This document shows, piece after piece, positions 19,808-58,100 of a stretch of 64,000 nt of DNA. The notes beneath the pieces were generated by a model, which saw only the letters and a list, made by a program, of their open reading frames with translations, did not search any database and was not told the origin of the DNA. The DNA is from Actinernus sp. WN-2022. Lineage: Eukaryota > Cnidaria > Anthozoa > Actiniaria > Actinernidae. The stretch spans positions 100,791,321 through 100,855,320 of the forward strand of contig JAOWCC010001634.1 in assembly GCA_030867875.1 (NCBI GenBank), in the 5' to 3' direction. The position numbers were made by a program, and so were the translations under genes. Positions within the stretch are counted from its first letter, which is position 1; each line of letters starts with the position of its first letter.

Positions 19808-19936
19808 TTACTTAATTTCACTTTCAACAGACAAAGCTACTAAGTTCCATTGCTGGAGTTCCTTGTGTATTTTCAATGCTGTGTTGTACTTTGCTGCCGT
19901 TGTGGCCACAAAACAGCCCTTTATGAAACTGTGAAT
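19808..19936 (-). CDS. Receptor last exon: kinase C-lobe end and stop
   Basis: After a TTTTGTCATCAG acceptor the exon reads 42 codons and TAA (19808-19810). IHSFIKGCFV followed by ALKIHKELQQW fits the kinase alpha-H/alpha-I region (usually li..C...dP..RPt...l..L), though the RP signature is lost. Phase 0 matches the donor at 23446. Distance from alpha-F to alpha-H is about 25 residues shorter than in typical kinases, so either alpha-G is lost or an exon in the 3.5-kb intron was missed. Confidence 0.65.
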   Translation of the reverse strand: MHSFIKGCFVATTAAKYNTALKIHKELQQWNLVALSVESEIK

Positions 19937-22900
19937 CTGATGACAAAAAGCATAAAGGTTCTTTAAAGTGTGACTACTGTAACCTGGGCCATTTAGGCAG
20001 ATTCAGATTTGTTTTTATTTCGCACTATTTCATTATTTACAATTTCGTACTCAGTAAAACAAGAAATAAAAGGGCAACAAAGAAATGGAGAACTACATTT
20101 TTAGAAAAGTGCGTTAGTGGTCAAAGAAGGCTTTCGAGTTGACCACTATCACGAGAAAACTAAATGAGGAAGGAAAAGAAAACTAAACACACTGCAAACG
20201 AAAATAAAGCATTCAACTTACAAATCCTAGCATATCCACGCAATTTTCTTCATTAAAATGACCTCGACTTCAGAACGAGTCCACACAATGTGCCTTTTAC
20301 TGGATCGAAGCTCGAGCAAGTTGAAATGCTTTTGTCTTGTACTCGACACTGATTGGCTCAAGTAACCGTAAGTTGGAATGCTATTGTCTTGTACTCGACA
20401 CTGATTGGCTCAAGTAACCGTAAGTTAAAATGCTATTGTCTTGTACTCGACCCTGATTGGCTCAAATAACCGTAAGTTGGAATGCTTTGTTTGTGTTCTG
20501 CAATGTGATTGGTTGTCGTTGTCTAAGTGGCCCAGGTTACAGTAGTCGCACAGTAATAATTTACTTGTGTTACGATTCTTTTCGCCATAAGATCGGGACT
20601 CTTTTAACTTGTTGCTTTTACGTCCAAGTGTGGACAAGGTATAGCTAAAGTACCTTACAATATCAAAACTACTAAAATTATGAATGAGATTGGTTGCCAT
20701 AGCAACACAACGGCCTCGCAAACCTTACCCACTAATTATATTTTAAAAATTATGCATCAAATTCTGCGAGGTGAAATTCTACTAAAAAGCTAAACATGAA
20801 AGTTTTATACCATATCTTTAATCTGAGAAGAAACTGTCCTTTTGAAACTGTTAAGGTCGGCACACACGAAGGGACAAGTCCCTTGTTGCGTACACACGAA
20901 GGGACAAGTCCCCTCGTGTCAACTAGGACAAATCTTGTCAGTTTGTCCCTGGGACTTGTCCCCTCAATTCAAACCATCTCACGTTTGCAGGTTTCGTTAC
21001 TATGCCCGCGCGGTCAGAAAAAAACCTTTTCTAGTCTCCTTGGACTTAGCCTGCTGTGCAGACGTATTTTTCACTCTCATAAATTCGAATAAAAAAGTAA
21101 CGTCTGCTTACCCGAGCGCTTAATTAGTTTCCAATATGCAAGCATGACGTCAGCAGGTTTGTTTTATTTTTCTGCCCAATCAAAGCAATTGCTGGCTTTC
21201 ACGTGACGTCATGGCCGCCATGTTGGTGTACCTTTAACAATAGATTCCTCGTTAGCTTCTTTTGTTAGGTACACCAACATGGCCGCCATGCCCTTTGTCA
21301 TTGGAATCTCTGGGGATTGAGTGAAAGCCAGCAATTGTTAGAATTTTAGTGAATTGGCGCGCCAGTGAACACTCTCCTATGATTGGTCAATGGCAAATGT
21401 ATTATCTGAATTCCTTTTAAATGTAACATTACCTCACTTTCCAGGATATGGAAGGTAAAATCTGATTGGTCCATAACACAATAAGGTGTGCATATTGGAA
21501 ACTAATTAAGCGCTCGGGTAAGCAGACGTTACTTTTTTCTTCGAATTTATGAGTGAAAAAATACGTCTCCATAGCAGGCTACCTTAGACTCTAAATCCTT
21601 TACTTTCGAATAATGATGGTTCAATGGGTAAAAAAGATTTTATTGTAAAATCCTGCCTCCTGGTTATAAGCCCCCTCCTCCCTATCAACTCGTTACAAAG
21701 GAAACTTCAATTACCACGTTCACAAGATAAGTATCTAGTCCACTTTTTTCACTGTGTTGATGAAGCACTATGACATTTTGTATGGAAAGTTAAACACTAT
21801 CCAAAGTATAGTCCTTTTCAAAATCACGCGACTTTGATCGCCACCAGCCAATTACAACCTAACGATATTACAATTCCAAGTTCACTAAAACTCAGTTACC
21901 AAGTCACCGATTGCATGCGCCTTCAACTCAAATCCCATGTCAGTGACTCATCCTCATCAGTCCAAAAGAAGAACTAGGTTCATCATTGTTGACCCGGCAC
22001 AAGTGACTCACTCAATATCCTGCACTATTCATTGTTTTCGGTCTCGCGCGCGAAGAATTCACCGATTTGCACTTTTTAAACTAATATGAGCCTGGTTCCT
22101 TCACTGGTGTGGTCCAGTATAGTTCACCACAAAATTTTGGCGCGCGCTTATTGGCTAAAAGCGATCACGTGACGTGATAGTTGTCGTCCGCGGGTGCAAA
22201 CTATCAGGTGTTATAGTTCACCACAAAATTCTCTCCGATTCTGATTCGATGAAATTGATCACGTGACGTGTTAGTTGTCGTCGGCGGAGGCAAACTATCA
22301 GGCGATAGTGCCCGCTGAGAGCGAATGACAATTTTGTGATGAACAATAACGGCAAATAGACTGTGTTTGTCTCGGAACTATCGGCTGATAGTTTCTTAAA
22401 ACTAGCATATAAGCCCTCGAACTTCGTTCTCGGGCTTATATTTGTTTTAAGAACATCAAATTTCCGCGGGCAACTATCAGCCGATAGTTCCTCGACGGAC
22501 ACAGTCTATTTGTATATTATAGTTCACCACAAAATTTTGGCGCGCGCTCATTGGCTAAAATTGATCACGTGACGTGATAGTTGTCGTCCGCGGAGGCAAA
22601 CTATCAGGCGATAGTGCCCGCTGAGAGCGGAAGACAATTTTGTGATGAACAATAACGACAAATATAATAGACTGTGTTTGTCTCGGAACTATTATACAAA
22701 TAGACTGTGTCCGTCGAGGAACTATCGGCTGATAGTTTCCCTTGGAAATTTGACGTTCTTAAAACTAGCATATAGAGCAGAAGACAATTTTGTGATGAAA
22801 AATAATTAACAATTATTCATCGAAGTGAAGGTGAATAGTGGTGGATATTTACCGAGCCGCTTTTAGTATATACCACACTGCAGGTGAATAGCCAGCACCA

Positions 22901-25900
22901 AATAGTTATTTTATTTTCTGTCAAATGGACAAAAACTCGCGCGAGGTGATCGCTGCTTCGCTCGGAGGTGAATATGAAATCATATTCACTGTTTGAGTAG
23001 GCAATCAGAGCGCGCGAAAAGTGATATTCACTGGTGTGGTATATACTAACGACAAATAGACTGTGTTTGTCTCGGAACTATCGGCTGATAGTTTCCTTGG
23101 AAATTTGATGTTCTTAAAACTAGCATATACTGATAAGCCCCTAACTGCGTTCTCGGCCGCTTATATTTGTTTTAAGAACATCAAGTTTCCACGGGCAACT
23201 ATCAGCCGATAGTTCTTCGACGGACACAGTCTATTTGTAACATTCCTTGTCACAATAACTGGCTTCCATCACGATCATATTACTATTTTACTATCATTCG
23301 AATTAATTATGGTCTCTTTAGTATTAGCCGATTTATCGGTGCCAGAGTATAGAATACCATTAAGAAAGCCAAAAGGGGAAAAAAAAGGTCTGCTAATAAA
23401 AAATATATACTAATAGAAAAAAAAAGATATGTTGTTAATAATTACCTCGCCTGCTTCTTCATTTCTGTAGTGGTTCACCATGAATTCTACCAATGACAAC
23501 ATATCTTCGAGGTCTTCTGTCTCACCGGATGCTGTACCTTCAACTTCACTGCTAGCGCTAGTGTTGATTACTGCATTCCCGAAATCTCCGATAACAGCTT
23601 TGAATGGTGGAATCTAGAGGGGGAAAATAAACTTATTAAACTTGATAAACTCATAGATTAATGTATTGGAAGAACAACAGAGAATAGAGAATACTACATT
23701 GGTCAGTGCACGGAGATAAGGAATTGATCCACCGCGTTTAACGCGAGTATGTTGGTTAAGCAACCTTATTTACCATTGGTAACTCGTGACAGTCTGGTGA
23801 GACTGTTAAACTTCAGGCCGACGTGGAACCCACGATTTTGTGTCCTTATTCGAGAAGACATGACAGTCTAGCCATTTACAGTTCCAGAACGAGATTGTTT
23901 CACAAAGGTAGCACCCTCTACTCAGTTATTTTAAGACTCTGAGTGTTGGTCGGGCCAGGTTTTTGAACTTTCGACCTCCCGCACATCATACCGGAGCTTA
24001 ACCACTGAGCTAACCGGGAGGGACTGGAACTTAACCACTGAGCTAACCGGGAGGGACTGGAACTTAACCACTGAGCTAACCGGGAGGGACTGGAACTTAA
24101 CCACTGAGCTAACCGGGAGGGACTGGAACTTAACCACTGAGCTAATCGAGAGGATATATATACACATCTCGCCTGTTATACTATGTGTATTTTACCAGAC
24201 ATCAAAACATCAGCAAAAACGTACATACCCCGCAAGACTCTTCAATCAGGATGCTTCTTTCGTTGATATTCTTGTGTAATATACCGTTGTCATGGAGATA
24301 TTCGAGACCGCTGATGACGTCAAATGTCACGTGAAAGATGATGTCATGGGCTGACAGAGTACCCGTGTTTTCGAGGAACGTCTCTAGGGTGATCGAGGAG
24401 CTGAAGGTATAGCAGATGAACCTAAATGAGATGATAAGGACAGACTGCATTATTACAGGGCGGAAAGGTGTAAAGATGTACAAGGGAGACACCAAGGATC
24501 GACTATCATCGTCATCATCATCGCCAAATTCATCATCATCATCATCATCACCAATTTCAATTTATTTAGAAACGGTTGACTCTCCAATAAAAACGCTCTT
24601 CCAGAAAGCTTGTACAAAGTTATCAGTATTACAAGTGAAACTAATAGTTAACTAACACAAGCTCATCCATATATCGGAATTCTTAAACCAAGAATAACCC
24701 GGGTGTCCTCTAGAAGTCGTTATAAATAATTCAACAGATCCGAAACTACCCTACAAGAACTATATCGTGCTGGTAACTTACAGAATGTTTTCTTTTAGAA
24801 ACAATGTCTCGTCATTCATTTGAATAAGTGTTGAGGAATTTGCTGAAAAAAATATTAACGTTTTCATTAAAACATGCACCTGTACAAAATACTTACCACG
24901 TTTTCACACAAGTTAGAACTATTCATTCAGGAACACGAAAAATAGGGTTATACATGCAATATATGTTCGTGTGTTGTAAAAAACGTCTCAGTGGTGCTTA
25001 AGCTCTATTTGTATCTTTGGTCCGGCAAGAGAAAGTTAGTCTATCTGGGATTGACAGTACACACTAGTGACCCCTTAAAGTAATGACAGCTTACTCTGGT
25101 ACGATTGAATTATTATTCTACAAAGAGTACTTTACCTCCATCGTCACTCCATTGATACGCAATGACATTGTTATGACAACCAGACTGTATCAGCCTGGTC
25201 TGTACGGCAACTTCTCTCTCCCAAGCCTCTACATCGTCTCTCTCGAAGTACTTTAGTAAGATCCGATCATTGGACTCAGTCTCAGCCAACATGAAACCCT
25301 ACGAAAAGATGGAAACTAGTAAAATAGTTGGAGGTTTCTCGGTTAGGCACGTTATTAAAGGTGCTACGTCAACCCACACATGATTAACTTTCTCATGACG
25401 AAAGTAAATAATAATAATTATTATTATAGGTTTTTATGGCGCATTTAAAAATCTCAATGCGCTTACATGGAGTATGAGAAGACTATATTAAAAAGTAGAA
25501 AATAGTAAAAATAACTATAACTATAGTAAAAATAACTATACCTATATTATAAAATATATATATATATATATTAATATAAGAAGTAATGTAAAATATATAT
25601 ACATAAACAGAGACTGATATACATATACATACACATATATGTATACATGTAGAGATATATATAACAGAAAATATATACATATAACATAATATAATTTAAA
25701 AAAAACTGGGACCTGAAACAATCATAAGCGGCTGGTCAAAGCCAAGATCCGGCTAACTCACAAATCGAATTGGAATTTAGCGTGTTCGTTTTTGTGGAGG
25801 GAGGAAAACCGGAGAATCCGGAGAAAAATCCTCGGAGCAAGGGAGAGATACCAACAAACTCAACTGACATATGGCGCCACGTCCGGGGATCGAACCTGGG

Positions 25901-28900
25901 CCACAGAGGTGAGAGGAGAAGCGCTTAACCACTGCGCCACCCCGGCTCCCCAGTTTAGCAGACTATGCTTTCCAGAGACTGGAGAATATTTGAGATAATT
26001 TTGATGAAGGAATGGATGAAAGATATTGTTTTAAGAGAAATTTAGAGCAACTTGAAATCGGCTGACTGTTACTGACATTAAGTTTATAGAATATGGGACC
26101 GTTCATTAATTATGGGAGATTTCATTTTTTTCTTCTTTTTTTTTTGGGGGGGGGGGGGGGGGCGATGAGTGCCCCCCAAGGACATGCCTTTTTTAATGAC
26201 TCTTCTGCCTCTTCTGACATTGCCCCTCGTTTAAATTGTACATTCCTAATCATAGATGCATTAGGTATTCTTGGGTAAAGCCGAGTTAAGGCTCTAAACC
26301 CTAAACTGAAACTATATTTAAAAAAGAAAAAAAACATAGGAACTTCAAGAAATTAGTTGACGATCATTCCTTACAAAATGTTTTACAACTCACAACTGAA
26401 TTTGGCATGGCTTCATCCTTGAACAAGTGTAGCTCTTCTTTTATGTTCAGTCGATTGTTCCGTGGACGTATGTGCTCCATGGCTATACCGGACCCAACTT
26501 CATTGCCATTTTGGTTATCTGTAACTGAAAAGATGACAGGTTTATAAGGACTGCTATCATGAACTTTTAAAAGAGCTATAATGGCCTGTAATGATTGCAG
26601 GATCTGACTTCATTTATTTAAAGAGATCGGTAGTGTTATTAGCATAACCTGAGTGTCTGTAAATGCTATTTTCCACCTCCAATCGATTGTCAATCTTTCT
26701 AAAACTGCGTTTTTGAAGATTTTTTGCCCTCCAGTAAAGCCTTTCCCATGGGATCACGAGTGCAATTCATTCGTTATAGAAGTGATATATCAGCACGTGA
26801 CTTTCATGCAAAAGGTCTGTTGTTGCTATGTAGTTAACGTGCCGATAAGCCCAAATTTGTTTATAAGTAATATCGATTCTACATCAAGCGAATAAGTGAA
26901 TAGTTAAATATTTCTTGTTGTTTCATAGCCATAAGTTTTCCAGACACAACGCCGCACGCTTGCATTGGCTGATTCAAGGTCACGTGGCAGTCATTAAAAT
27001 CCAATGTTTCCCGCGCGGGCAACAATTGATGCCACGTGATCACATCGTGACAGAAAATGGCGCCACTGGCTAGCTAAAACCCGTAAAGGCGGGAAATATT
27101 TCTTTACCAAAATGTTTAAATCTTCATCAAAAGCTGACCATTTTTCGTCGAAAGAAAGCATTCAAAATGGAACCAGCTCAAAAGAAACAGTTTACATATT
27201 TATCAAGCGGAAGAGAGAGAAATTGGTAGCTAAAAAAGGATGCAAGAAAGACACAAATCAATGCTAAAAATGCTGTAGCGACGCTGGCAGCGTTTTGAGT
27301 TGAAAAGCAGCTACCCGAAGAGAAGACGACAAACCTCGCTCATATCAGGTAATAAAACTTATGTCTATATAACAAATCACTTAATGACTGTCCCTTCTGG
27401 AATCACCGAGTTTTGTTTCCCCTCGACTCTGTCTCGGGGAACATCGAGGATCTCGGGGGAAACAAAAGTCACTGATTCCCTCGGGGCCAGTCATTAAGAG
27501 ATTAATGTAATTGTTGCGTCTATGAGTCATAAAGATGTCTACTTCCAATATGCTAATGAGTAACGTCATACGAGGCGTCATTTATTATACAAAAACATGC
27601 TGGCAGAGATAAATGACCTTTTATACATATCCATGGTATCTTTGGGCCTTATATCAGTAATTTTACCAACTATTTTGTATAAATCAGAAATAGTTTCATT
27701 CACAAGGAGAACGAAATGTCTGTAAATCGGCCTCCTATCATAGACGCAACACTCAAATCAAGAAATATTGTAATATTCAACTATTTATTTGATGTAGAAT
27801 CGATATCAATAATTAGAAAATTGGGCTAATATGCACTTTAACAAATAAAAGATGGTTTGCTGTTCTATTTAACAAATTAAGAGGCCTTAGCCATGTATTA
27901 TAGACCCATTCGAAAAATGGCGTCCAATTTAATTAACTATTGTTTAGTACTGACTAGCCTCGCTTACACGTTCAAAAGCTTTTGTGTGTACTGACTAGCC
28001 TCGTGTTCACGTTACCAGGACAATAGCTTTTTAAATTGGACGCCATTTTTCGAATGGGTCTATACTGTACATAAAACGCGACGGACATTTCATTTGAGAA
28101 CACCATGAAGATAAATGTTGAATGCATAAGCCGACAGCGTGTGCTATTAACTGGAGTGTTCTCAAATGACTGGTGTTTTTATGACAGTGCAATATATGGC
28201 TAAGACTTCTTTACTTGCTTTATGATATAGATGGAAGCGCGCGATGAAAGAAATCAAATATTTAAAAACAATAAAACACGCTCACGTATGTTATATACTC
28301 TGGTAAAACACGTGTTTAGCCAATCAGAGCGCGTGTCATATTATATTGTGGCTATGGTGTAAAAAAGATATATGCACGTTCGAACACGAGAAAGAACATC
28401 TTGCACTCTGAGCTTGTCTTTGAGCCAATGAAATCGTGCGTTCTTAGGTTGCTCCCGTAATTTTTGGGGCTATTTTTAGGTCCTAAGAGCTTACCAACAT
28501 GCACCCCACACCGCGGCAAAACGTCACGCGCATGCGTATTTGCTATTTCTTGTCCGCGCGCAGCCTCCCCCAGTTTCCCGCGAAAACTGAAATGAAACAA
28601 CAGGCACATGCCGTGATTTTAACGTTTCTGCTTAAAAGTATTCATTTGTGAACTGTTTTGTCAAAAACTAAGAAAACTACTTAAAAGCTAAGCCTAAGAC
28701 TTTAACAGGTTGAAGTTTCCTTAATTTGTAATTCATTGTGAGTTTACTAAGTTATAAAATTATTTACTAAAAAAGTTGAAACCCTCGGTAATTTGTATTT
28801 GAGAGCAGAGCCTTCGTTCTTTTGGCCAGCGGAGCATACCGTTTTGCCGCGGTGTGCATGCACCAACACCGCGGAAAAACCTCACGCGCATGCGCTTTTG

Positions 28901-31900
28901 ATGAGCCGGTCGCGCGCGCGTCTCCAGTTTCCCAAAACTAAAAGAAAACAGAGGCAATCACCCCTGTTTCTAATTTTAAATATGTACGTGAAATGTTTCA
29001 CGAAAAACAAGAAAACCACTTAAAATTTAACAGGTTGAAGTTTTCTTAATTTGTAATTCACTGTGAGTTTACTAAGTTATAAAAATAATAAACTAAGTTA
29101 TAAAAATAATTACTAAAAAGTTTAAGCCCTCGGTAATTTGTATTGAAACCAGAGCCTTCGTTATTTCGGCCAGCGGAGCATAGCGTTTTGCCCGGTGTGA
29201 CATGCACAGTTAAGGTAAGTTAAGTTAAGTTCAGAGACAGTGTTATGTAGTTGATTTATTATAATTACTGGGAGCAGTTTTAAGTAATGGTCCGCGTAAG
29301 AACTATAGTAAAAACAATAGAGCCGTGGCAATGAGCATTCCTCACGGTCGATTTTGCGTGAATATGACTTAAGTGCTGTATGAGATGTCTACAGTCCAAA
29401 CTACACACAGAACTAAAATAAAGTAGTTTGTTATGGGCTAGTTTTACTGTGAAAACTCAAAGAAACCACCATCCAGCCAATCGGAAAGGGAGAAAACAAA
29501 AGATCTTTCAATCGCAAATTTGATAACTTTCCCCACGGTCGATATTCTTCGAAATTAAACCATAGTCATTTTGATCAAAAATAAATTGAAACCTCAAAAA
29601 ATATCATATAAAAATGTATTATTTCGATGGTTTTCTATTGAATTTATGAGTATCAACCAATGAAATTACGAGAGAGAAGAATAGAAAATTAGCACCTTTT
29701 TCCATTCCTTGCCGTTCAGTGCTATCGTTCTTAGCCGGACCACTACTTAATAACCCTTTTGCAGGAAACAGTCACGTGCTGACATAATACTTCGTTAACG
29801 AATGAAATGAGCTCGTGATCCCCATGGGAAAGGCTTTACTGGATGCATGATCTTCAAAAACGCAGTATTTTTTTTTTGTATTTAAGCTATATTTTATTTC
29901 AGATGTTTTATCTTTTTTTACAATTTTTGTGCACGATTTTTATGAGAACACATGGATGCTGGATGGCAAGCTATCTTTAACTGAAAACGCTGTTTTAGAA
30001 AGATCGACAATCGATTGGAGGTGGAAAATAGAATTTACAAACAGGTTTTGCTAATAACACTCCCGATCTCGTACAAGTACATTTTGATAAATGAAGTCAG
30101 ATTTTTTTTGCTGTCCAGTACAACCACATGATTGCATTCCTGCAAAAGGTCCATTTCTTGTGTCATTCACGCATGCGTGGCATATTTTAGACAGTCACTC
30201 AAAAGAAATGAAGAGAAATAACTTCACGGATGAAGTTATACTTCCTACTAAATCACTTGTTCGTCATTGATACAGAAACCTGAAGAAGCTTTTTTGGAAA
30301 AATGAACATACCTGTTTCCCTGCGAATTGGGTTACTCTTGTTTTGGCTCTTGAACAGCAGTCTCACCTTCTTCTTTACGTATTCGGTAGAAAATGTGTAC
30401 AGGACTGGATTGATTGAGGAATTCACCGGAAGGATAAACACAGCAATCCATACATAAATACTCCCCTCGAGACCAGAAAGCTTACCAGAGATGGCCAGGA
30501 GTGCAAGTATTATCACAGGAATCCAACAGCAGAAATCGGTAAATACGATGAAGAAAAGTCGGACGGCTTTTGCTGATTCTTTTTTCATGTGCTTACTTGC
30601 AGACGATCGAGTGAGACGCCAGACGGTCCAGAATATGGCAACATATGAAGCTAGAATGAAGATAAAAGCTGCACAGTTCAGAGCGATAACAAACGTCAAT
30701 GAGTACTCCCATCCTCGAGAGAAATGTGATGATAGCTGAAGGGGAAGGCAGACGCTTGAATGGCCATAGAATCCAAAATCTGCGTCCTTATCTGCAAAGT
30801 AAGATATGTTGGAGACCGGAAGAAAGGAAATCAGACAGCAGAAGGCCCAGATGAGTATGCATATCATATAGGTTCCCCTTAGAGGTAGTCTCTGTACTCT
30901 GAAGGCGAATACCACGCACACAAGCCGATCAGCTGTGATGACAGTTAATGTGAGCACTGATGACTCGCTAGACAGCATCGATAGCGCACCGGCCAGTTTA
31001 CAAATTAAGCTACGTCGCCATTCAACATCGTGCTCGAAGTATTTCCCTTTGTATTGGGTATCCTGTATAGCAATAATAAGCATATATACTCCCATTAAGA
31101 AGTCTGCAATGGCTAGGTTCGTCAGGAGTACAGATTGGACCTTGTTCTCGTCGCGAATCGCTAGCCGCCAAATTATAACCAACAGGTTGCCAACGAATGC
31201 CAGTATGCCAAGTATCCACAAGCACGCACGTGTGGCGGGGTTCTTTATCATGTCTTCACAGCTCGAGAACGTGTTGTTATTGGGCGATTGACAGCTCAGA
31301 GACTCGAGTGACTTCTCTGCGTAGCAACATAGTATGAAGCTGTCCAATTTTCTAGAAACAAAGACGTACATTTTAATAAACTGCAGTAAGGCTGTCACGC
31401 ATGTCACACAACACCGTATCAGCCAAACTTTTTTTAACCACAATCCTTTGCACGCAAAAAGCACACCATTTGTATGTGTATACCGTAAACTTTCGAAAAT
31501 AAGCCCAGGGCTTATATTTCTTCAAAGGACTTTTTGAGGGCTTATTTTCGGGGAGGGCTTATATTCGGGGGAGGGATTATTATTAGATGTTATTTTTCGT
31601 CTGAAATAAGTCGCGTAGTAACTCTTTAGACAACAATATAGAACACAACATGAGCTTCAGTGCAACATATTGAAAATCTTGTGCTTATCTTTGGGGGAGA
31701 GGTGGGGGGGGCTTATTATGAGAAGGGTTTATGCGTCTAATACTTAGGGGGATAATTTGGGAGGCTTATTTTACGGTATACTAATCTTAGCATCCTGAAG
31801 ATAACATTGAACTATTATCTTTTACCGCCTCCCGGTTAGCTCAGTGGTAGAGTAGGTCGCGGGTTCGGATCCCGTTGGCCTTGTCTCCTTCCTTTACTTA

Positions 31901-34108
31901 TCTATATATGTGAGGGAGACGAATGAACCTGTTGTGTGATATTGTGAAAACGTAAGGGGCCGGATAGTCTCCCGTTACAACAGGCTGTATTGTTACATGA
32001 TTGTTACATAGCCTAATCAGATACTCAATAAAATGTCTCGATTCTGATTGATGAGAGCAGTGCAATTTATCCCAAATTGCACTGTTTGGTTGAAATTGCA
32101 CTCCAAATCAGGAATTTGACAATCTATAAATCGAAAACAAAAGCTTCAGAATGAAATCGAAGTACACAAAGTTGTTCACAGTCATGTTTTGGTAAAGGGA
32201 TTTTTCCGATGATTTTCGAAATTTCCGAAGTGTTTCCGAACATTTCCGAATGCTTAAAACTGACTATGCTGCGCTGTGGTTACGGCAAAAACACGTCTAA
32301 TCATGTAAATTCATTTGACAGTACTAAACATTAACATTTCAGATGATGTAGCATTACTTCATAAACGGTGCTTTAATTGTTCCAATATTTCCTAAGATCG
32401 TCCGAAGATTCAAGTAAATTTGTAGAGTATATATATATATATATATATATATGATTAAAATGAAATCATATGGTATTCTCGTGCAATTCGCGATATATAA
32501 ATTCGAACTTGTTTTCAAAGAGCTCAAATTGCACTGGCCCCGCAGGCTCGTGCAATTTTGATACTGTTTGAAAACTCACTCGTTCAAATTTATCCCGAAT
32601 TGCACTCGAAACCATATGATTTCCTATACATAACCTTTCCAGACACAACGCACGCTCTCATTGGTTGAACCGGGGTCATGATCACGTGGTAGTCATCAAA
32701 ATCCAATGTATCCCGCCACGTGATCACACTGGAAAAACTGGGCCTCTTCCATGGGATGGAAGTTCGTTGTAAAATAGTTGGAAGTTGGAATTTCCATGGT
32801 TTTGCACACTTCCAACGGATGCTAATATGTTGGAAATACCTTGGAACTATTGTTGGAAATTTGTTGGAAAATAGTTGGAAAATAGTTGGAATTTCCATGG
32901 TTTTGCACACTTCCAACGGATGCCAATATGTTGGAAAACCTTGGAACTATTGTTGGAAATTTGTTGTAAAATAGTTGGAAGTTGGAAGTTCCATGGTTTT
33001 CACACTTCCAATGGATACCAATATGTTGTTAACACCTTGGAAATGTTAAGTGTTGGAAACTCTAATTTGCAAGAAATTTCCATCCATTTGGAAGATGTAG
33101 TTTTTCCAGTGGCACATCGTGACATCAGATGGCGTGATGTGTCGCGTGCGTCACTGGCTAGCTTAAAGGTGGGGAAAATGTGTACCAAAACGCAGGGAAA
33201 ACGAATTTTATAATTGCTGCTATAGACTGAACAAATCACTTTTTTTTAAATGACTAGCCCCTCGTGAAGCAGTGAGTTTTGTTTCCCTCGATCCTCGCTG
33301 TTCCACTCGACTCCGTCTCGGGAAACATCGAGGATCTTGGAGAAACAAAACTCACTGTTTTCCCTCAGGACCAGTCATTAAGTGTTAATTGCACAATGCG
33401 CCACAACTGCAGTCCGTATCTCAAGACCTCCCTTGTGAAGGGGATTTGTTCTTTAATGGTCCGGTAAATCGCCGTATGACCGGTCGGTGTCAGTGGTTTT
33501 GGACCACTGCGAGACTTTTAGTGAGTCATGACTGTATGATTAGTTCATGCCTTCATTACATCTAAACTTGACTCATGTAATAGCATTTTGTATGGTTTAC
33601 CGGCATGTCGGAACTTGATAAACTACAGCGTGTGCAGAATACGGCTGCGAGACTTGTAACTCGAGCTGGGAAGTTTGACCATATTTTCCCTATCTTATAT
33701 AAACTTCACTGGCTGCCAGTTAGAGATAGAATTACTTTTAAAATAATTTTAATTACTTTTAAGGCTCTCCATGGCCAAGCTTCCAAATATATAAGCAAAT
33801 TGCTCAGACCTTACAGACCTTCTCGTTCACTCAGATCGAGTTCACATAATTTACTGTCAGTTCCTCGTTGTAATACTGTAACCTATGGCGACAGATCATT
33901 CTATGTCGCTGCAGCTAAACTGTGGAACTCTCTTCCAGATTATATTCGAAGTATTGATTCATTAACTAGGTTTAAATCAAGTTTGAAGACCTTTCTTTTT
34001 TAGATGCTTTTAGCTAGTTACTTGATACATTTTATATATTCAGGTAATTTTATTTCGATTAGGTATAATATGTAAGAGCATCGAGACTCTGTAGGATGCT
34101 CCTAATAC

Positions 34109-34140
<32 letters not shown>

Positions 34141-37100
34141 GAGAAACGCGAAACGGCAATAGCTAGCTAGGGGTGACGAATTCGTGGCAAGAAAAACGGA
34201 GGGTCTCGCAAAAAGTCGGTAAAGTCTGTATAGGTCGGGTCTCGGAGTCTTGATTTTTCTTTATTTTGCCCGAACGTCTCGGATTTTTTGGAGAGGGTCT
34301 CGGAGTCTCGGATGTTTTTTGGAGAGGGTCTCGGAGTCGCGCCTTTTAACCCTTTTTTTTTGGCGGCTCTGCATGGGTTTTATAAGGTATGCGAACCACA
34401 GCTAATTGGCTGAGTGGTGAACTCCTCACCTGGCGTGATGAAAAGTACTGGATATTTCGTCATAATAACTACAATAACAACAGTCTCGGGCTCGGATTTT
34501 CAAATCGCTTAAAAGTGATGAGTCTGCGGAGGTTTAACTCATCCAAAGTTTATTCTTCAGTTTTCTCCCCTCTCTAACCTTTTCCTCTTTACAACTTTTT
34601 TAACTAATGTTTTGCACTGATTTACAATCCTTTGTTCAGAATTCACCACAAAGAGTTTAGGTCCTGACAAAGCCTATTCAGTCCAGGAATATCTGAGAAA
34701 GGAACATCTGTGAAACATATGTTTTCTGAAAGGTATCTGGGCAGATCTACTATTTCTACCCAGGTAATTTTCTTATAAACCCGGTGTATTTTATGTAAAT
34801 CGGAAGTTCTCTTGTGTACGTTTATCGTAGGTGCTTTTGTTACGAGTACATGAAAGGAATACTCGCTAAATATATAGGTCTTTGTTTGGCCTTCTTTCTT
34901 TGTTATGATATAACTCTTTGTTTGCTTGTGCCAGATCATTTCTGTTTTTTTTTTAGTACAAAGGCTAAGTTATAAAATTTAGTAAATTTCTTTTAACTTT
35001 CTAGCATGCTTCTAAATTACCCCAAAAGTTTCCCCGTATCAAACGTCTCGGGCTCGGATTTTGGAAACGCAAGTCTCGGCGTCTCGCAAAGTCTCGAATT
35101 TACCATTCGCCACCCCTATAGCTAAAATGGCAACAAAAAATACGCGACCTTAACTCAAGACATTTCAGAAAAGTAAGGTTAGAAGGTCAGAATTAGAAGG
35201 CAAGGCAAATATGGAAAAAATCTTGACCGGCTATTGACCAAACAGAATGCAAGAAATGGCAGAGCCATTAATAATAATTATCATTATTATAGTGAATATT
35301 AATATCGTAGACAGCAACTTACAGTTCTTGTAAGTTTTTTAGGTTACTGAACACGTCTGTGGGCATGTCTTTCTCCGACAGCGGATTCTTTTGAAGATAT
35401 CTTGAATGACAAAAATTCACCATAAATGAGTATTGAAGTTCTCAGGATCAGCTACGAAATGGTCCCATCTAGTAATATAGTAAGGTGACCCAAATACCTG
35501 ACGGAGAATTGTCTTCATTTTTCATTTCTATTGTATAATATTTTATCATGTAATATATAAAGAACGAGAGCTAGTGTTTACCAGGGTATCCAAACACCGA
35601 GAAAGATGAAAGCACGAGGCCGCTTCGGCCGATTATAGACTACAAGGGTTGTGACTGTTATTTTCTCATGGTGATTTCAACAAACGGACTGATAGCGTCA
35701 GGTAGTGGGCAAGACAGCGGACAAGTAGTGAAGATCAGCCATGAGGTGATGGTTCGAGTCACACTGAACACCAATTTTTATTTCCGTCTTCTCCTTCACT
35801 TCTCCATGTAAAGTCATACTTATGCTGTAATCCTAGTAGCTTAATTAGGTCCATCACATGCATGAATCTTGATACCCAATGAGAGCACAATCTAGTGTTT
35901 CATTGGGTATCCAAACTCATCCACCTGGCCAAATGCAGTCCTCTGATTGACTAAAAAGCTCAGGAATTATTAATGAGTTTGAGAAGTAATTTTCAAACAC
36001 GTAGGAAGGCCAGAGGTTTGTTGCATTCGTATTGCGCGCAATCTTTAATATTATTATTATCGTCGTCGTCGTCATCACCACGACCACCATCATCATCATC
36101 ATCGTTATCATTCACATTGTTGTAATAAATATGATGATGATTATATTTAGTAATAACATTTTCAATTACAGAAACTGAAGTGACTTGAGTCCCGTGAAGA
36201 TATCGCTTGATAATCTCCTTAGTTTATTATGATTAAGGTACCTGAAATGAAACAAAGTACAGCGTTAACATTGCGCAACACAACATGGCTAACATTACAT
36301 CGTGCAAGAAACGTGTCACACTCATCAAACAGGTCCATGTCAGAATCATTGGCAATATATCAGTGACAGTAATGCAAGGACCACTCGGAGTGGTCATTTA
36401 CTCTTCACAAATGGATGATTGAATGTCGTGCATCAAAAGCATCCAATTTACAAATGTAACATCCTTTCTTCTTATCAATATCGCGTAAATTTCACAACTG
36501 ATTTTCAATGTTAATTTCTTGATATGGACCGGCATTTTACTTTCAGACTGAAATGTATCACATCAGACCAAGAATACAATTAAAGTTTCAATGCAATGAC
36601 ACTAATTACTCGTGTTTTAGTTGTTGTCCCAGTCCTTTTTGCACGACGCTGCCCTGGTTTATTTCATAGAAACATTGTAATTAAAAAGGAAAAGCCGATT
36701 ATTAAATTGACTGATGGATAGTCCAAGAGAGATGATGGGTAAAAGTGTCAAAAATACAGTTATTGTTGTTACTTTATTTAGTTGCTGTGACTACAGAATT
36801 CCTTAGATAAACTGGGATAAATTATGATAAGAATTAGGATGATACTTACAAGTGAGTTAAAGATGTTGTGTCTACGAATGTTCCTCCTTCCAAAGTTTCA
36901 ATTTCATTCGACTGCAGACTCCTGACAAGATATACCACAGTTACCCATCATCATTATTTGTTATTATTATTATCTTTATTATTTTTATGGCATCATCAGC
37001 ATCATTATTATTATATTTAGTATTTTTTTTTGTAATTACAGAATCTGAAGTGACTTGAGACCCGTGAAGACATCGCTTGATAACCTCCTTAGTTTATTAT

Positions 37101-40100
37101 CATTGAGGTACCTGAATGAAACAAAGTACAGCGTTAACATTGAGCAGTAAAACGTGGCTCATATTATATCATGCAACAAGTCCACATATCAATGAAAGTA
37201 AGAACGGTATGCAAGGACCACTCGGAGTTTAAAAACTGAAAACTTACATTTACTCTTCACCGCCAACACAAATGAATTAATGTTGTGCATCAAAATCATC
37301 CCCTGTTATTGCACTTCTTATTGTCATCATATTTGAATTCGAGCGTTCCTATCAATATCACGTAAGTTTCACAACTGATTTTCAATGTCAATTTCTTGAA
37401 ATGGACATTTTACTTTAACACTGAAATGTAGCACATCAGACCAATCTGTTAGTACAAAAACAATCACGAGAATTACTTGGGTTGGTTGTTTTCCCAGTCC
37501 TTTTTGCATGACGTTACCCTGGTTTATTTCATAGAAGAAGTGTATTTAAGAAGGACAACTGCCGGTCGTTAAATTGATTGATGGGTAGTTCAAGAAACGT
37601 TATGGATAAAAGTTAGTTGATGTGACTAAAGATTCTTTAGATAAACTGGGATAAATTCTGATAAGAATTAGAATGTTACTTACAAGTGAGTTAAATATGT
37701 TGCGTTTGTAAATGTTCCTCCTTCTAAAGTTTTAATTTTATTCGACCGTAGACTCCTGACAAAGTATAACCAAAGGTTTCCATTCGGTGACTCAATTGAC
37801 AAGTGATGTATTAATAACCTAACATCATATCTTACTGATGGATTACAATGGTGTACTCACAAGACGAGTAGATACAACTAAATGTACCCATTGGGTGACT
37901 CACTCAATTGACAAGTGATGTATTAATAACCTAACTAACGTCTCTAACATCACACTGATGTGTCACTATGATGTACTCACAAGACAAAGACTCCTGACAA
38001 ATATAACCAAAGGTACCCATGGGGTGACTCACTCAATTGACAAGTGATGTATTGATAACCTACCTAACGTCTCTAACATCACACTGATGTGTCACTATGG
38101 TGTACTCACAAGACAAATAGACTCCTGACAAATATAACCAAAGGTACGTCTCTAACATCACATATTACTGATGCGTTACAATAGTGTGTATACTCCTGAC
38201 AAAACATAATCAAAGGTACCCACTTGGTGCCTTATTTAATTGACAAGTGATGTATTAATAACCTAACTAACGCCTCTAACATCACATATTACTGATGCGT
38301 TACAATAGTGTGTATACTCCTGACAAAACATAACCAAAGGTACCCACTTGGTGCCTTATTTAATTGACAAGTGATGTATTAATAACCTAACTAACGTCTC
38401 TAACATCACATCTTACTGATGCGTTACAATAGTGTGTAGACTCCTGACAAAATATAACTAAAGGTACCCACTGGCCGACTCACTCAATTGACAAGTGAAG
38501 TATTAATAACCTAACTAACGTCTCTAACAGCACATCTTACTGATGCATTACAATGGTGCACTCACAAGACGAGTAGATTCTGAAGATTCTCGAAAGCAGT
38601 TCTTGATATTGTACTCAGTAGATTTTCACCAAGATCGCTGCAAAAACAGAAGTACGCACAGAACAAGCTATTATCGGTGAGCTTATCTTGCATGTTAATC
38701 AGTTGAGCAATGTAAGGTCCAGTTCACTATATTCTTGAAAGGAAACTCTAGAGCTTAGGGACCCGACATTATTTAGCGTTTGGGGGGGGGGGGCTACTAG
38801 ATTTGTAGGGGGGTCACGATTTTTTATGTTCCCATTTAGGGGGATCAAATTTTTATATGCTCCTCTTTTATAGGTTATATATATTTATAGGCTTATCTAA
38901 GGGGAGGGTCATTATTTTGGGAGACCAGAGAACTGCAGGGTCACAATGTTTTGGGCACGCCACAATGCAGATCTAATAGACCCCCCCCCCCCCCCCCCTA
39001 CCTCTAAATAATGTCCGGTCCCTTACTCTTTATAAAAACTTACAGTAACTCCATATTTGGAAGGTTTTGAAGTAATGGAAGCTTTCGAATGAAATTCCCA
39101 TTTAGTCTTCTGTTCCGAGACAAAGAGAAACCATTGTTACTGTAGCTTAGACTGGAATAGCTGTTGGTTTTTAACAACTTGAATATAGCTGGTAACGCCA
39201 AATGAGAGAATTCAAGGTAGAGCGTAAAGTACTACCGTTTTGACTAGCTTGTTTTTAAATCGTATACGCGAAAAATCTTACATTACATCACGATCTATTA
39301 AAATTTGGATATCAACTTTCTCTTTCTTCGAGTTTGAATGAGGTTGGAACTGGCAAATTTAGCGATTTTAGGGGAGCTCTTCAATGGCAGACAGTGACGT
39401 CACCGATTTATAGCTCAAAGTAAATTGTTCGATATAACTCATCCTAAAAGAAATTGATTTTGTGAGTACGCTTGACTTGATCTTTAGATTCTATAATTAT
39501 TTTGAGTTGACACGGCTGGTGGATCCAAATTGAAAGTTTTTTTCTTTTTAATGTGAAATAACCGTATTATATGTTGAGTAAACTAGTTTAATGGTGATCC
39601 AGAACCAAATGATTATAGCATCTCAACCTACATGACTTTGACCTGTGACAGATCGGAGAATGCGTAGTTTTTATTCTTTTTAATGTGAAATAACCGTATT
39701 ATATGTTGAATAAACTAGTTTAATGGTGATCCAGAACCAAATGATTATAGCATCTCAACCTACATGACTTTGACCTGTGACAGATCGGAGAAGGCGTAGT
39801 TTTTATTATTTTTAATGTGAAATAACTGTATTATATATTGAGTAAACTAGTTTAATGGTGATCCAGAACCAAATGATCATAGCATCTCAACCTACATGAC
39901 TTTGACCTGTGACAGATCGGAGAAGGCGTAGTTTTTATTCTTTTTAATGTGAAATAACCGTATTATATGTTGAGTAAACTAGTTTAATGGTGATCCAGAA
40001 CCAAATGATTACAGCATCTCAACCTACATGACTTTGACCTGTGACAGATTGAAGAAGGCGTAGTTTTCTATGTTAATGATGACATTTCTACTTAAATCTC

Positions 40101-43100
40101 TGCAAGAAAGAAAAACAGATAACTCAATCAAGAAAACAAAATCATATCGTAGCCCCTTTTATCGCTAATTGTCCTGTAAAACAAATACATGTCGTTCTGC
40201 CTTAGGTGTGTCCTCTTTAGATGCACAGATGACAACAAAATACGAAGAGAATATCAGTGACGCCACTCGGCTGCGTCACCTGACGTCCTTCTTTGTTCTC
40301 GTCACGTTATGACGTCATCTGTGTATCTATAAGAGAAGAGACGCACGGCAGAATGAAATCTATTAGTGAAACAGATCAATACTATGTTGGTATTTACCTA
40401 CTATTTAATTTTTGTTCCAGCCACGAATTGGTCGTAAGAACAAATGTGCAGACTGAAGTGCGCAATAAAACTAAGCTAATAAAATTATTTCATCAGTTTA
40501 TGTTCCAGTCTCGAATTGGCTCAATGCAGAAACTTTACTTACATGTATTTTAAGCCTGAAATGATTGAAAAGTTTGACTCTGCCGTAACTCTGCTGATTT
40601 TGTTTCCACCAAAAAATCTGCAAACAGACAAGATCGATGTTTATGTTTAGGAGGATGGCGTTATAATTGCTGAGGGGGTATTCAGGGGTTAAAAGATGGG
40701 TCAGAATCCACCTTTTCCTAAATCGAGCACTCCTTTCTGTCGATCCCCCCTTCCTCTCCCTCTCTATAATAAAGTAAAACAAAGAAGTCCCCCCAACTCC
40801 CCTCGGCAGAGAATCCTGGATCCGTCCCAGAATTCACAAATTAAAGACATATACGTGATCAAACTTTCTAACCGTCTCTTCCATCTTCAAATTAAAGCTG
40901 CATTAGTATCCAGTTGCTTCGTCGGCAGCATTTAGACACAACATTCAAATGAAAGATTGTTGCCAGATGGATTATGTTGTAATAATAATAATAATTTATT
41001 GTATTTGTAAGAAAAGCACAATTTTTACATGAAAATCAATAAAGAAAATCCGAAGCCAGAGGCAAAGGGTCAGGGTGCTGTTATGTATAAATATAGATAA
41101 CGAAACAGTATTAAAAGATGGACACGCAGTTTTAAGTGTTACAGTACTAGCTACATACAAAACAAATACTAGTTTACAGGATTATAAGTTGACAAGTTAC
41201 ACAGCAAAAAAAGAATATATAGCTATATATATATATAATTAATTAAACATATATTGCACACATACAGAAAGGCAGTTCATCAATTACTTATATAACTAGT
41301 TATTAATAAGACAAGAAGTGATATTTTAATTTCATTTTATAATTAAAAGGTTTTAGTGATTCACGGAAAGATGTTGGTAGACCATTCCAGATTTTGGGTC
41401 CTTGTGAACGGATTGAGAATTTATATATATAAAAAAGGTAATGTAGATTAGATCTATGTCTTGTAAAGTGATCATGGATTTCTAAATTAAATTTGAAAAG
41501 GGCAGATAGAGAATCAGGTAAGAGGTTATTGATGTGAGAAAAAACAAAGTACGAAATCTGGGACTTATGAATATCATGGATGGTTAGTATTTTGAGCTTA
41601 TCGAATAAAGGTTTAGTGTGAGTACGAGGGGGGGAATGAGTAATGATATGAATTACCTTTTTCTGCAATAAAAAGAAATTTTCAATATGTGTGGGATAAG
41701 TAGAAGCCCAAATAAGGGTACAATATTGTAGGTATGGTAAAATAAGTTAATTATATAAAACTTTGAGAGAATTAAAAGCCAAAAATTTACGTGATTTAGT
41801 AACTATACCAATGGCTTTGGAAATCTTATTAGTAATGGCATAAATGTGGGATTTCCATTATAAGTTTTGATGGATAATCACTCCTAAGAATTTAGTACAT
41901 TCAGTTCTATTAATTGTATTACCATTGATAGAAATAATGATGTCATTAAAGGGGCTATGTCATGGTACTGCGCATGTATCTAGTAATCGCTCGTTTAGTG
42001 GTTGTTATTTGGATAGAAACAGTTAAACTTCCCTCCCTCAATGCTCGATTGAAAGGATTTTCAATATTTTCCCTGGAGACTGTTTATATGCACTGTTTGT
42101 TAGTCATTTTTGCATATTTGCTTTCATTTTAAGCATCCCACATGGCCGAGAGGTTCGTTAGTTCATATCAAAATCGGTGGAAATAGCACTTTCCGGCCCG
42201 GAAAAACGAATGTAAAGTCTTACCGTGACACAGCCCCTTTAAAATTTACTTTCTTTTTAGTAGAAAAAAATATTATGAACTTGGTCTTATCAGGGTGAAG
42301 GGTTAATTTCTTAGCATTAAACCAAGATGCAACATGGATAAGGTCATTGTTTAAGATATTCACTAGATTGGCAATGTTTTTGTGACTGTAAAAAATATTG
42401 GTATCGTCAGCAAAGAGAACAAATGATAAATGTTTGGAGCTGTGGAATAAGTCGTTTATATATAAAAGAAAAAGAAGGGGGCCTAACACTGAACCTTGAT
42501 GTACTCCACAACTAATGTTCATGAGTGGAGAGTCAAAGTTATTAATTACAACATACTGTTGTCTATTACTCAGATAACGTTTGACCCAGTTTAAAGGTGT
42601 ACCTCTAATTCCATAAAATTCAAGCTTATTTAACCCTTTCCCTCCTGCACCGCCCGTAACCGCCCAACATGAAGCATGTACCTGGAGAAAATTATTGCAT
42701 CAAACCTAGACATGCTGGAAATACGATGTTGTGATATTATTTCAAGGGATGAATGACTTCGAAGCCACAGCTGTAACGGGGATCACTTGACTCTCCCACT
42801 TTGGAGAAAAAACGTATTTGTTTTGGAGATTGTTGTTCATTTCTTCGCTTTTCACGAATTTTGAGGAGCTGAAAATCGGCTCAAAAAACCCTTCCCATTC
42901 ACACTTGAAATCAAAAGCAAATACAAAATCACCACTCAGTCGTTACAGTACCTTGTTTAATCTTTCCAACCAGCAGGTTTGTTTGCATAAAATGCACCAA
43001 ACGACTGTGAACCACGCCGATGTTTACACTGCATTTCACTCGACCACATTTACCTGCTCCCACCTCCAACTGCATGCTGGGTAATCAACAAAAAATTCAC

Positions 43101-55100: not shown

Positions 55101-58100
55101 TGGCCAGTTAGGACTGAGCGCAATGTACAAAAGGAAAGGTCCGCTCTCTTTTAAATTAATACTGAGCGTTTTCACATTGTTGTTTTTTTGCAGCAAAGTG
55201 TTAACGACTGCTTGTATTTCACGTGCAGCTATTGTATTTTTTAAATAAGACTATTATGGTTTTATGACACGGTCTTAAATGTGGCCGTCGTGGTTTCTTG
55301 ATAGGTCCCTAATTGTATGCGTTATAGGATAGAACTGGCTAGTTCTTCTCCCTGAGTAATTGCCAGTCTGTCCCGAACCAGTTTCTGACTTGTTCCATTT
55401 GAGAACTGATTCGGTCAGATCAGTCGGTTCATGAAAATGGAAAGCGCCCTAATTTTCCATATGAGAACAACATGAAAACTTTCTCATCTGATATTTTTTA
55501 GAGCACCACAAATGTCTCTGTATTATCATGATCAGACCAGACAGGACTCGCGCGGTGACAGGTAGTATGCCGGTGAAGAACCTGAGATCTCTCGCCCCAG
55601 GTCCATACACAATATAACGAAACCTTACCTGATATGTCTCTACAGAACCCACTGACACCTGACCATAACGCCACAATGTCTCTGTATTATCATAATCAGA
55701 CCAGACAGGACTCGCGCGGTGACTGGTACTGTACTGGTGAAGAACCCTGAGACCTCTCGCCCCAGGCCCATACACAATATATCGAAATCTGATGCATGTG
55801 GTGTGGGCTGTCGCTGACCGGTCGTACCACGGGCTCGACGTGGTTGAGATACTATTTTCTCTGCTAGCGCCGATAATGATATGAGAATCTGAAGAAAGAG
55901 ATGTATACATGGGCTGTTCAATAAAGACTTGAACCATGTACGAGACAATTAATAAGGTCATTGTCAGAATACACTTGAGTACTTAGTTCTTCGTAAATGA
56001 TTTCCTTCAATAATTTGTTGATAAAGATTCCCTTAAAAGAAATGAAACAAAAAGATCGTGTTCGTCTATGAAATGTCCTCTGTCCTTAAAAGTGAATGTT
56101 CCTAATGTTCTAGAAAGTTGAGATAACCAGAAATTAACAAACGAAATGTACACAAGTGTGAATACCTCCAGCATGAGTGCAAGTGGCCAGAGCAGTTTTC
56201 CATCCTGCTTGATGAAAAGCTTTTTTCAGGTCATTCCAGTTGATAAAATCTCCATACTCACGTCCGCATCCTATTGACATGAGCAATACCTCATACTGAT
56301 CCATCTCACGTGACCAAATGTTGAATCCACTTATCCTGCCTGATTTTTTATTTGGAGTCCAGTCACTTGCGTTGGACCGAAACCCAATTGACAACTTGCC
56401 ATTACCTTTGATGTGATATAAGAAAATTAACTTACTCAAAAAGGATACTTACTGTAAATAATAGTCAGTCCTATCCTTACAAGAGACTACCATGTTTGAA
56501 TGCAAATCAGTTTTATTTTACATTCACACTGTACCTGGAATATGAACTCCGTCAACAGAGTCAAAGTTTTGTCGTCCAACTACACGTCCATCTCTGTATA
56601 CTCTTATCACACCACCAGCAGAATGCCACGTCACACACACATGGTGCCAGTCCTCTCTCAGAACGGAGAAACGAGGAAGCCTAGGATGAAGGTATCCAAT
56701 TAAAATACACAAAGATTTGATGTCTTTATTATATTTGAAGAAATAGTACCTCGCACCCCACTTCCTCCCCAAAACCAGGATAGATTTGCATCTTACTATA
56801 GGATGCATGTTACACCGATGTCATTTTATAATTATATAGAGACGGTGCAGGTCTGAATTCCCAAATCAAATAAAGTACTCTTTGCAGGTTTGCTTCATTT
56901 GTTTTTATAAGAGGTAAAGCTAGCTATCTTACCATGATATCCCCTTAATAACTATTTTCATTTCAGCTTCGAAGAACAGCCCCAGACCCACAGACATTTT
57001 ACATCCATCCATAACCTCGTACAATATCTTTAAACCAGGTACAGTGGATCGCAGCCACAGACACATAGTGATCGCCTTCAGATCACGTTTGGTTGCTTTC
57101 TTTACAGTTACGTTGCCAGTTTTGGAGTGGGACCAAAGGGTTCCTGTACAAGTAAAATGATATTTAATTGCGGATAATTAAATGGCAACCACTACACCAT
57201 CAGGACGACCACGCTGGTAACGCAGCCGACTGATGGTTTTGTGGTTAACGTTACCGTGAGTTATCCCAGGCCTTTCTCTATCGGGTTCGGGATGGAAAAG
57301 CCCATAACTTTCAACCTAAGGATCATTACTGATTCACAGCTGGCACATATGTTCAACATAGGAATCGCTTTAATAGCCAGAAGGATCCGAATGGGAAGCT
57401 TAGTTCCGAAGTTATGGACTTTCTCATCCCGAACCCGAAAGAGAAATGCCCGGGAAAACTTACGGTACCACAAAAACCAATAAGTCGGCTGCGTTGCCAG
57501 CGTGGTCATCCTGATGGTGTAGTGGTTAACACGTCGGACTAGTATACCGAGGCCGTGGGTTCGAATCCCGCTCAGGGCATATTTCTCTTTCACCTTTATT
57601 CTGACGATATAGGAGATATGGAGATATGAAATATGAATATGACATATGATATATATAGAGTATATTACACGGTGGTGAGAATATATGAAGTTTATCATTG
57701 AGAGTTGAAAACATTTCACGAGTGGGATGGTTAAAATCAAAACAAATATGCAACAATGACCAACAAACAATGTGTAGATCGAAAAAACTATTGTACATCA
57801 TTTCAAACAAGTATTGAGGGAAGAGGCTGTTTGTAACAATTAACAGCCACGCTAATCTAACAATGACTCTAGACATGCGCAACACCATGACTTAGTTCCT
57901 TTAATTGACAAAATTATTACTCAACGTAGTTATCGTTAAATGCACTAAGTTATCATTTAAGACTGAAATACCTACCAATCTAATTACCAAAGTACTAAAG
58001 TTTAACAGTAGCATTGCACAGACTCGACATTTTAAATCAGACGGAAGTCCCACCTGTGTAATGACCAGATGGCTTTCTCTGGTCGTTCGTGTGCATCATT

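Follow-up and report, generated by a model that had tools for sequence, protein, structure and literature searches.

Does the sea anemone Actinernus sp. WN-2022 possess a G-protein-coupled receptor (GPCR) with a kinase fold built into its own tail, or do a receptor and a kinase-like sequence only happen to be neighbours? The question is raised by the minus strand of a 64,000-nucleotide stretch of its genome (hereafter the window; assembly GCA_030867875.1, contig JAOWCC010001634.1, positions 100,791,321 to 100,855,320), where a preliminary description had proposed a class A leucine-rich-repeat (LRR) receptor spliced in frame to a C-terminal pseudokinase. The exon arrangement so proposed is confirmed and its interpretation supported. 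The answer that we consider probable, with some room left for others, is a single gene encoding an LRR-containing GPCR (LGR) of the relaxin-receptor/GRL101 kind, whose cytoplasmic pseudokinase tail would act as a docking platform.

Exon chain, receptor and tail

The exon chain of the window gene was rebuilt exon by exon from the genomic sequence (Table 1). GT-AG sites and matching phases join the exon for the seven-transmembrane domain (7TM) to six tail exons in a frame of 627 amino acids with no internal stop. The 7TM exon does end at a phase 1 donor, as the preliminary description had stated, and every downstream exon that it named is present; exon B is a linker outside the kinase fold. Nine upstream LRR exons (40617-35323) connect in phase with the 7TM exon and extend the chain to a partial protein of 844 amino acids, and exons were traced upstream to at least 40617 without the 5' end being found.

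By its sequence, the 7TM is of LGR type and appears to be of the relaxin-receptor/GRL101 kind. It matches the class A model 7tm_1 of Pfam, it follows the nine LRR exons and a cysteine hinge read as CCYA, and it retains DR and NPxxY-type motifs. The best solved match of the 7TM exon is relaxin receptor 1 (RXFP1; E 1.6e-60, 208 bits); the glycoprotein hormone receptors follow with at most 143 bits (LHCGR), and LGR4 with 63 bits. An NCBIfam scan of this exon gave zero matches. A pattern scan for LDLa and LRRNT in the sequence from LRR exon 1 onward, which excludes the 5' end, found neither. Among relatives from other anthozoans (see below), the fold of P0004 compares about equally with TSHR and RXFP1, the Orbicella model is 32% identical to RXFP1, and Oculina P0001 has a CUB domain plus a MAM match under the Pfam cut-off. 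Two pairs of LRR exons within 37755-36170 are near-identical (SLRSNKIKTLEGGTF/YLNDNKLRRLSSDVF and SLQSNEIETLEGGTF/YLNHNKLRRLSSDIF), probably through tandem duplication within the ectodomain.

The tail alone scores 34.1 bits against the Pfam model Pkinase (cut-off 31.7) and 32 bits against PK_Tyr_Ser-Thr (cut-off 23.1), and the joined protein reaches exactly 31.7 bits against Pkinase. At E up to 0.001, a profile of seven tails from the same genome matched 333 distinct solved sequences, of which the best 60 are all kinases, TYK2 first; the alphaF region is aligned too. Two stretches of the top TYK2 construct match this family profile, one HGN-type and one catalytic. Scanned singly, the own-genome tails match PK_Tyr_Ser-Thr at E up to 0.1 in seven of seven cases and Pkinase in six of seven. 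Fold prediction, suggested in the preliminary description and run here on relatives, gave a complete bilobal kinase fold: the modelled Orbicella chain matches both LGRs and tyrosine kinases, and the P0065 model has only kinases among its structural matches (VIA-align).

Table 1. Exons of the window gene, from upstream to downstream (positions in the window)
Feature	Position	Strand	Observations
LRR exon 1 seen	40543..40617	-	AG/GT, phase 2; FFGGNKISRVTAESNFSIISGLKY
LRR exon 2	40028..40099	-	72 nt, AG/GT, phase 2-2
LRR exon 3	39044..39109	-	66 nt, AG/GT
LRR exon 4	38566..38637	-	72 nt
LRR exon 5	37684..37755	-	72 nt
LRR exon 6	37040..37111	-	72 nt
LRR exon 7, near-copy of exon 5	36850..36921	-	72 nt
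LRR exon 8, near-copy of exon 6	36170..36241	-	72 nt
LRR exon 9	35323..35400	-	78 nt; in phase with 7TM exon
LGR-type hinge and 7TM exon	30312..31351	-	donor phase 1; 7tm_1 E 7.9e-30
Tail exon B, linker	26394..26524	-	phase 1 in, 0 out; FKDE
Tail exon C, kinase N-lobe with beta3 Lys and alphaC Glu	25136..25298	-	ILLKYF, WEREV
Tail exon D	24782..24842	-	61 nt; phase 1 in, 2 out
Tail exon E, alphaE and catalytic loop HKN	24229..24421	-	Pkinase match; HRD Asp absent
Tail exon F, DFG region and alphaF	23446..23613	-	GDFGNA; family profile aligns region to TYK2 up to alphaF
Tail exon G, alphaH/alphaI region and stop	19808..19936	-	IHSFIKGCF signature

The same fusion in paralogs and other anthozoans

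A search of the 1.39 Gb genome with the tail gave 19 matches: six at the window locus, six at a second copy of the window gene (about 99.6% identical, introns included) and seven at seven paralogous loci. An LGR 7TM exon precedes each of the seven paralogous tails on its own strand: for six paralogs it lies inside the stretches first fetched (53-59% identity), and for the seventh it came to light once the stretch was extended by 10 kb (51.5% identity). Since order and strand are shared by seven of seven paralogous loci, the LGR-tail arrangement is beyond chance. Each paralog model contains a linker, two N-lobe exons, a catalytic-loop exon and a DFG-region exon in identical phases, an equivalent of exon D (58-61 nt, same phases) occurs in all seven, and the length of exon B is 2 mod 3 at all eight loci, an agreement in phase that is partly built in, as exon B acceptors were chosen partly by phase. 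In addition, the p20.18 donor was re-chosen as GTAAGT (phase 1) in place of GTACAA (also phase 1), and for p0.16 the linker exon was picked out by eye. The linker motif ILQD[ED] is found at five of the seven paralog loci, with VFQDE in p20.18 and no motif of this type in the p5.84 linker exon.

The 7TM and tail trees (seven rows) are concordant bar the position of one paralog. In the only pair unsaturated in both regions, synonymous divergence (dS) is 0.40 for the 7TM against 0.43 for the tail, and the ratio of nonsynonymous to synonymous divergence (dN/dS) is 0.17 and 0.39, respectively; hence the tail is as old as the 7TM and under constraint, though a looser one. Two stretches, C888:142001-172000 (L029-L031) and C888:2813001-2843000 (L026-L028), hold near-identical copies (about 95-99%) of one receptor gene, about 2.7 Mb apart on the same contig in opposite orientation, either a recent duplication or an assembly artefact.

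The preliminary description had also suggested looking for anthozoan proteins with both domains in one chain, and such proteins exist. An alignment covering the 7TM and the tail, used as query in a protein search that scored 7996 candidates, returned 319 proteins; among the best 120, which were examined with the own-genome tail profile, 16 carry the tail behind the 7TM. They come from Oculina (2), Porites, Orbicella, Acropora (6), Nematostella, Desmophyllum, Stylophora, Exaiptasia, Pocillopora and the gorgonian Paramuricea. Pfam finds 7tm_1 in all 16 and PK_Tyr_Ser-Thr in 12; the remaining four rest on the family profile, three of them (P0009, P0014, P0035) matching Pfam kinase models with scores under the cut-offs only. 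Many of the tail-less proteins among the best 120 are 7TM-length fragments. Three other entries, returned by a search with the Oculina tail alone, are read as faulty gene models, a reading that is unproven: P0121, in which LRRs, hinge and the start of the first transmembrane helix stand in frame with the tail and the middle of the 7TM is missing; P0122; and P0123 (Stylophora, named GRL101), probably a gene-model chimera, which extends from the sixth and seventh helices across the pseudokinase to a weak reverse-transcriptase match under the Pfam cut-off.

A joint tree, in which the deep nodes are weak (44-70), places the genome's copies in three groups, each adjoining stony-coral sequences but outside them. 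One copy, p20.18, stands with Porites and Acropora (support 100); p5.84, adjoining the window copy, joins Desmophyllum and Stylophora (support 94); and the p0.16 group falls together with Oculina, Orbicella and Pocillopora (support 82), Exaiptasia lying inside at 44. Thus, several paralogs seem to predate the split from the stony-coral lineages.

The least certain exon of the window gene is exon G. Equivalents were found at four of the seven paralogs, and none in the fetched stretches of p36.16, p20.78 and p5.84. Its signature IHSFIKGCF, designed only after exon G sequences had been seen, occurs five times on both strands of 264 kb (the window plus 20 fetched loci, minus the near-identical second copy L039), and all five occurrences are last exons of the LGR-tail family; the second copy (L010) is 99.9% identical to the window over 21442-18311. 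A chance or repeat-derived exon G was rejected, the signature scan backing the window exon. A p20.49 peptide similar to the end of window exon G was rejected as well, because it sits in a repeat and a better p20.49 last exon lies elsewhere. Short repeats near 20551, 19999 and 19519 lie around exon G (20551-19500, minus strand), with related copies in L028, L029 and L021, and a small mobile element may have contributed to or reshaped the 3' end of the window copy.

Judged by the usual definition of a class I PDZ ligand, 16 of the 19 rows with a readable C-terminus have a PDZ-ligand-like end, T-x-L/V/I (WDTYL, WDTFL, DTPV, DTSV, ETRV, ETRL, DTIL and TTAI; P0012, P0013 and P0001 are among the carriers), a count that omits p5.84, p20.78 and p36.16, which have no exon G, and the truncated P0007. 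The exceptions are P0002, P0003 and the window copy. As a control, an [ST]-x-[LIVF] end occurs in 4 of the 104 tail-less proteins among the best 120, a weak comparison given the many 7TM-length fragments among the 104; one of the four is the tail-less LGR P0097, which ends YDTRL.

Catalytic residues and rival readings

HRD and DFG are the customary names of two kinase motifs, as JH2 is of a kinase-like domain. Residues were counted in seven own-genome rows (window included) and 16 external rows, leaving out p2.82 (a near-copy of p0.16), the second copy of the window gene, and P0121-P0123. The beta3 Lys is present in seven of seven own and 14 of 16 external rows, the alphaC Glu in seven and 15, and the HRD His likewise in seven and 15. 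The HRD Asp is absent from all seven own tails, the window among them, and from 14 of the 16 external ones, as expected from the preliminary call of a pseudokinase, and the DFG Asp is kept in just two own rows and one external row. The two external tails with an HRD Asp, P0012 and P0013, also keep the loop Asn (HND..N), but NFD replaces DFG; the three with a DFG Asp are the window, p5.84 and P0035, all without the HRD Asp. Because none of the 23 rows has both, the tail is, as far as its residues tell, a complete but catalytically crippled domain of tyrosine-kinase (TK)/tyrosine-kinase-like (TKL) type, that is, a pseudokinase with a mostly conserved Lys-Glu pair. Conservation of the beta3 Lys and alphaC Glu suggests that it keeps a nucleotide-binding or switchable N-lobe without phosphotransfer.

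We think it unlikely that the tail is instead a catalytically active, unconventional kinase that signals directly. The complete bilobal fold predicted in relatives, the N-lobe Lys and Glu, the HND..N of P0012 and P0013 and the GDFG of the window would suit such an enzyme, but the two aspartates never occur together, no glycine-rich loop is visible in the aligned tail rows, and the activation segment is short, with no APE motif visible by eye.

We give equally little credence to a gene that makes both a tailed and a tail-less form by alternative splicing or polyadenylation, the tail only tuning trafficking or desensitisation. The introns between the 7TM exon and exon B (434 to 3503 bp in the paralogs, 3787 bp in the window) and the existence of tail-less database models fit this scenario, as do several Acropora entries labelled isoforms, although every one examined has the tail; against it, the endings obtained by reading through the 7TM donor are not conserved. 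Very improbable, and rejected on the seven paralogous loci and the fused proteins of other species, is a pair of neighbouring, co-duplicated genes, a plain LGR ending after the 7TM exon and a separate pseudokinase gene: the purely genomic origin of the exon chain, at least one Met in exon B in the seven own rows tabulated (p2.82 left out) and the tail-less P0097 and Stylophora model P0050 speak for it, but the 16 annotated anthozoan proteins have both parts in one chain, phases agree at eight of eight loci, in the models the reading frame of exon B stays open ahead of its first Met, and the read-through peptides are short, at 3 to 35 residues, and vary from one paralog to the next, the sole similarity being that of p0.16 to its near-copy p2.82.

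Several observations weigh against a single receptor with a pseudokinase platform. The chain of the window gene is known from genomic sequence alone, the window tail used as a single query retrieved no homologue at E 0.001 (the alignment-based search recovered homologues where it had failed), the search with the Oculina tail alone returned six proteins of which just three have 7tm_1, and P0122 combines MAM domains with the tail and lacks a 7TM. The window tail is only 24-30% identical to the paralog tails and ends in ESEIK, with no PDZ-like ending, and for these two reasons the window copy may be diverging in role. Some residual or unusual kinase activity is compatible with the sequences, because P0012 and P0013 keep the HRD Asp and the window, p5.84 and P0035 the DFG Asp. 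The proposed role as a receptor-borne pseudokinase scaffold, finally, is drawn by analogy.

In receptor-linked pseudokinases such as JAK JH2, HER3 and those of the receptor guanylyl cyclases, a degenerate kinase domain is kept for allostery under a receptor. The likeness lies in that degenerate domain, and the top solved match of the family profile is a TYK2 construct; to our knowledge, none of these is attached to a 7TM protein. In an LGR with a pseudokinase tail, a ligand bound by the LRR ectodomain would switch the 7TM, and the pseudokinase, held near helix 8 by the linker, would offer a conformational docking platform by which a partner, be it another kinase or an adaptor, is recruited or allosterically activated. 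Most family members seen would be tethered to PDZ scaffolds through the C-terminal T-x-L/V/I. Since the DR and NPxxY-type motifs are kept, G-protein coupling may persist alongside the pseudokinase.

Other features of the window are of minor concern here. The intron ahead of the DFG-region exon contains a tandem repeat (23993-24153) of 4.9 copies of a 33-base unit that looks tRNA-like by eye. Frames at 42640-41300 (minus strand) and 33584-34003 (plus strand) resemble, by eye, reverse-transcriptase remnants of long interspersed nuclear elements; the latter has no Pfam match at E 0.01. A tRNA-Thr (AGT) lies at 57508-57579 (plus strand), ARAGORN and Rfam agreeing.

Known systems and meaning

The type C LGRs (RXFP1/2, GRL101) share the LRR ectodomain, hinge and class A 7TM of the window gene and differ from it in that a complete pseudokinase follows its 7TM; the LDLa pattern was not found in the window sequence held, which is without its 5' end, and the Oculina relative has CUB. 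The GPCR-TKL bigrams of oomycetes and amoebozoans differ in the type of their 7TM. In domain order they agree with the window gene, and some carry DEP (PMC5784254; this and the papers cited below are represented by parts of their text). The choanoflagellate GPCR-TKL/K and the sponge and choanoflagellate GPCR-TK also have a 7TM followed by a C-terminal TK/TKL-type kinase domain, but the 7TMs of GPCR-TKL/K cluster with no other GPCR family, in contrast to the LGR 7TM of the window, and the catalytic residues are lost in the window family (PMC12716839). Thus, the fusions that the preliminary description mentioned for choanoflagellates and oomycetes are documented, and with a C-terminal kinase-type domain on one chain with the 7TM the window gene is a GPCR-kinase fusion as well.

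Metazoan GPCR extensions are stated to "do not contain catalytic domains" (PMC5784254), to which a pseudokinase tail is not strictly an exception, and in a 2025 survey sponges are the only animals for which GPCR-tyrosine-kinase fusions are reported (PMC12716839). For cnidarians, Nematostella has been credited with 13 LGRs, nine of which fall outside types A, B and C, with no mention of a kinase in the parts available (PMC9545775); type C1 and GRL101-like LGRs have been placed in the phylum in a paper whose available parts use the word kinase solely about growth-factor receptors (PMC4079206); and other novel cnidarian domain combinations have been listed (PMC5094078). No description of an LGR-kinase fusion was recognised in the full-text literature searched, most subscription papers and bioRxiv excepted. 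The preliminary suggestion of an undescribed system stands for the literature searched and not for the databases, which already hold the proteins, some under names such as GRL101-like. As far as the papers searched go, the fusion is found here on a new receptor class and in an animal phylum new to such fusions.

In summary, GPCR-kinase fusions now reach Cnidaria and class A LGRs, through a multigene LGR-pseudokinase family present in stony corals, sea anemones and a gorgonian. More tentatively, and at somewhat less than even weight, these receptors might form an ancient anthozoan class that predates the hexacoral-octocoral split, in which an LGR with a pseudokinase and, for the majority of members, a PDZ end signals at least partly via a scaffold rather than via G proteins; if this is true, such a GPCR would in effect behave as a pseudokinase receptor does. 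What a kinase domain does on a GPCR is called unknown in the available text of PMC12716839, and Nematostella (P0009) and Exaiptasia (P0035) are laboratory animals in which this can be asked. Corals, sea anemones and a gorgonian appear to have receptors with a signalling scaffold of their own.

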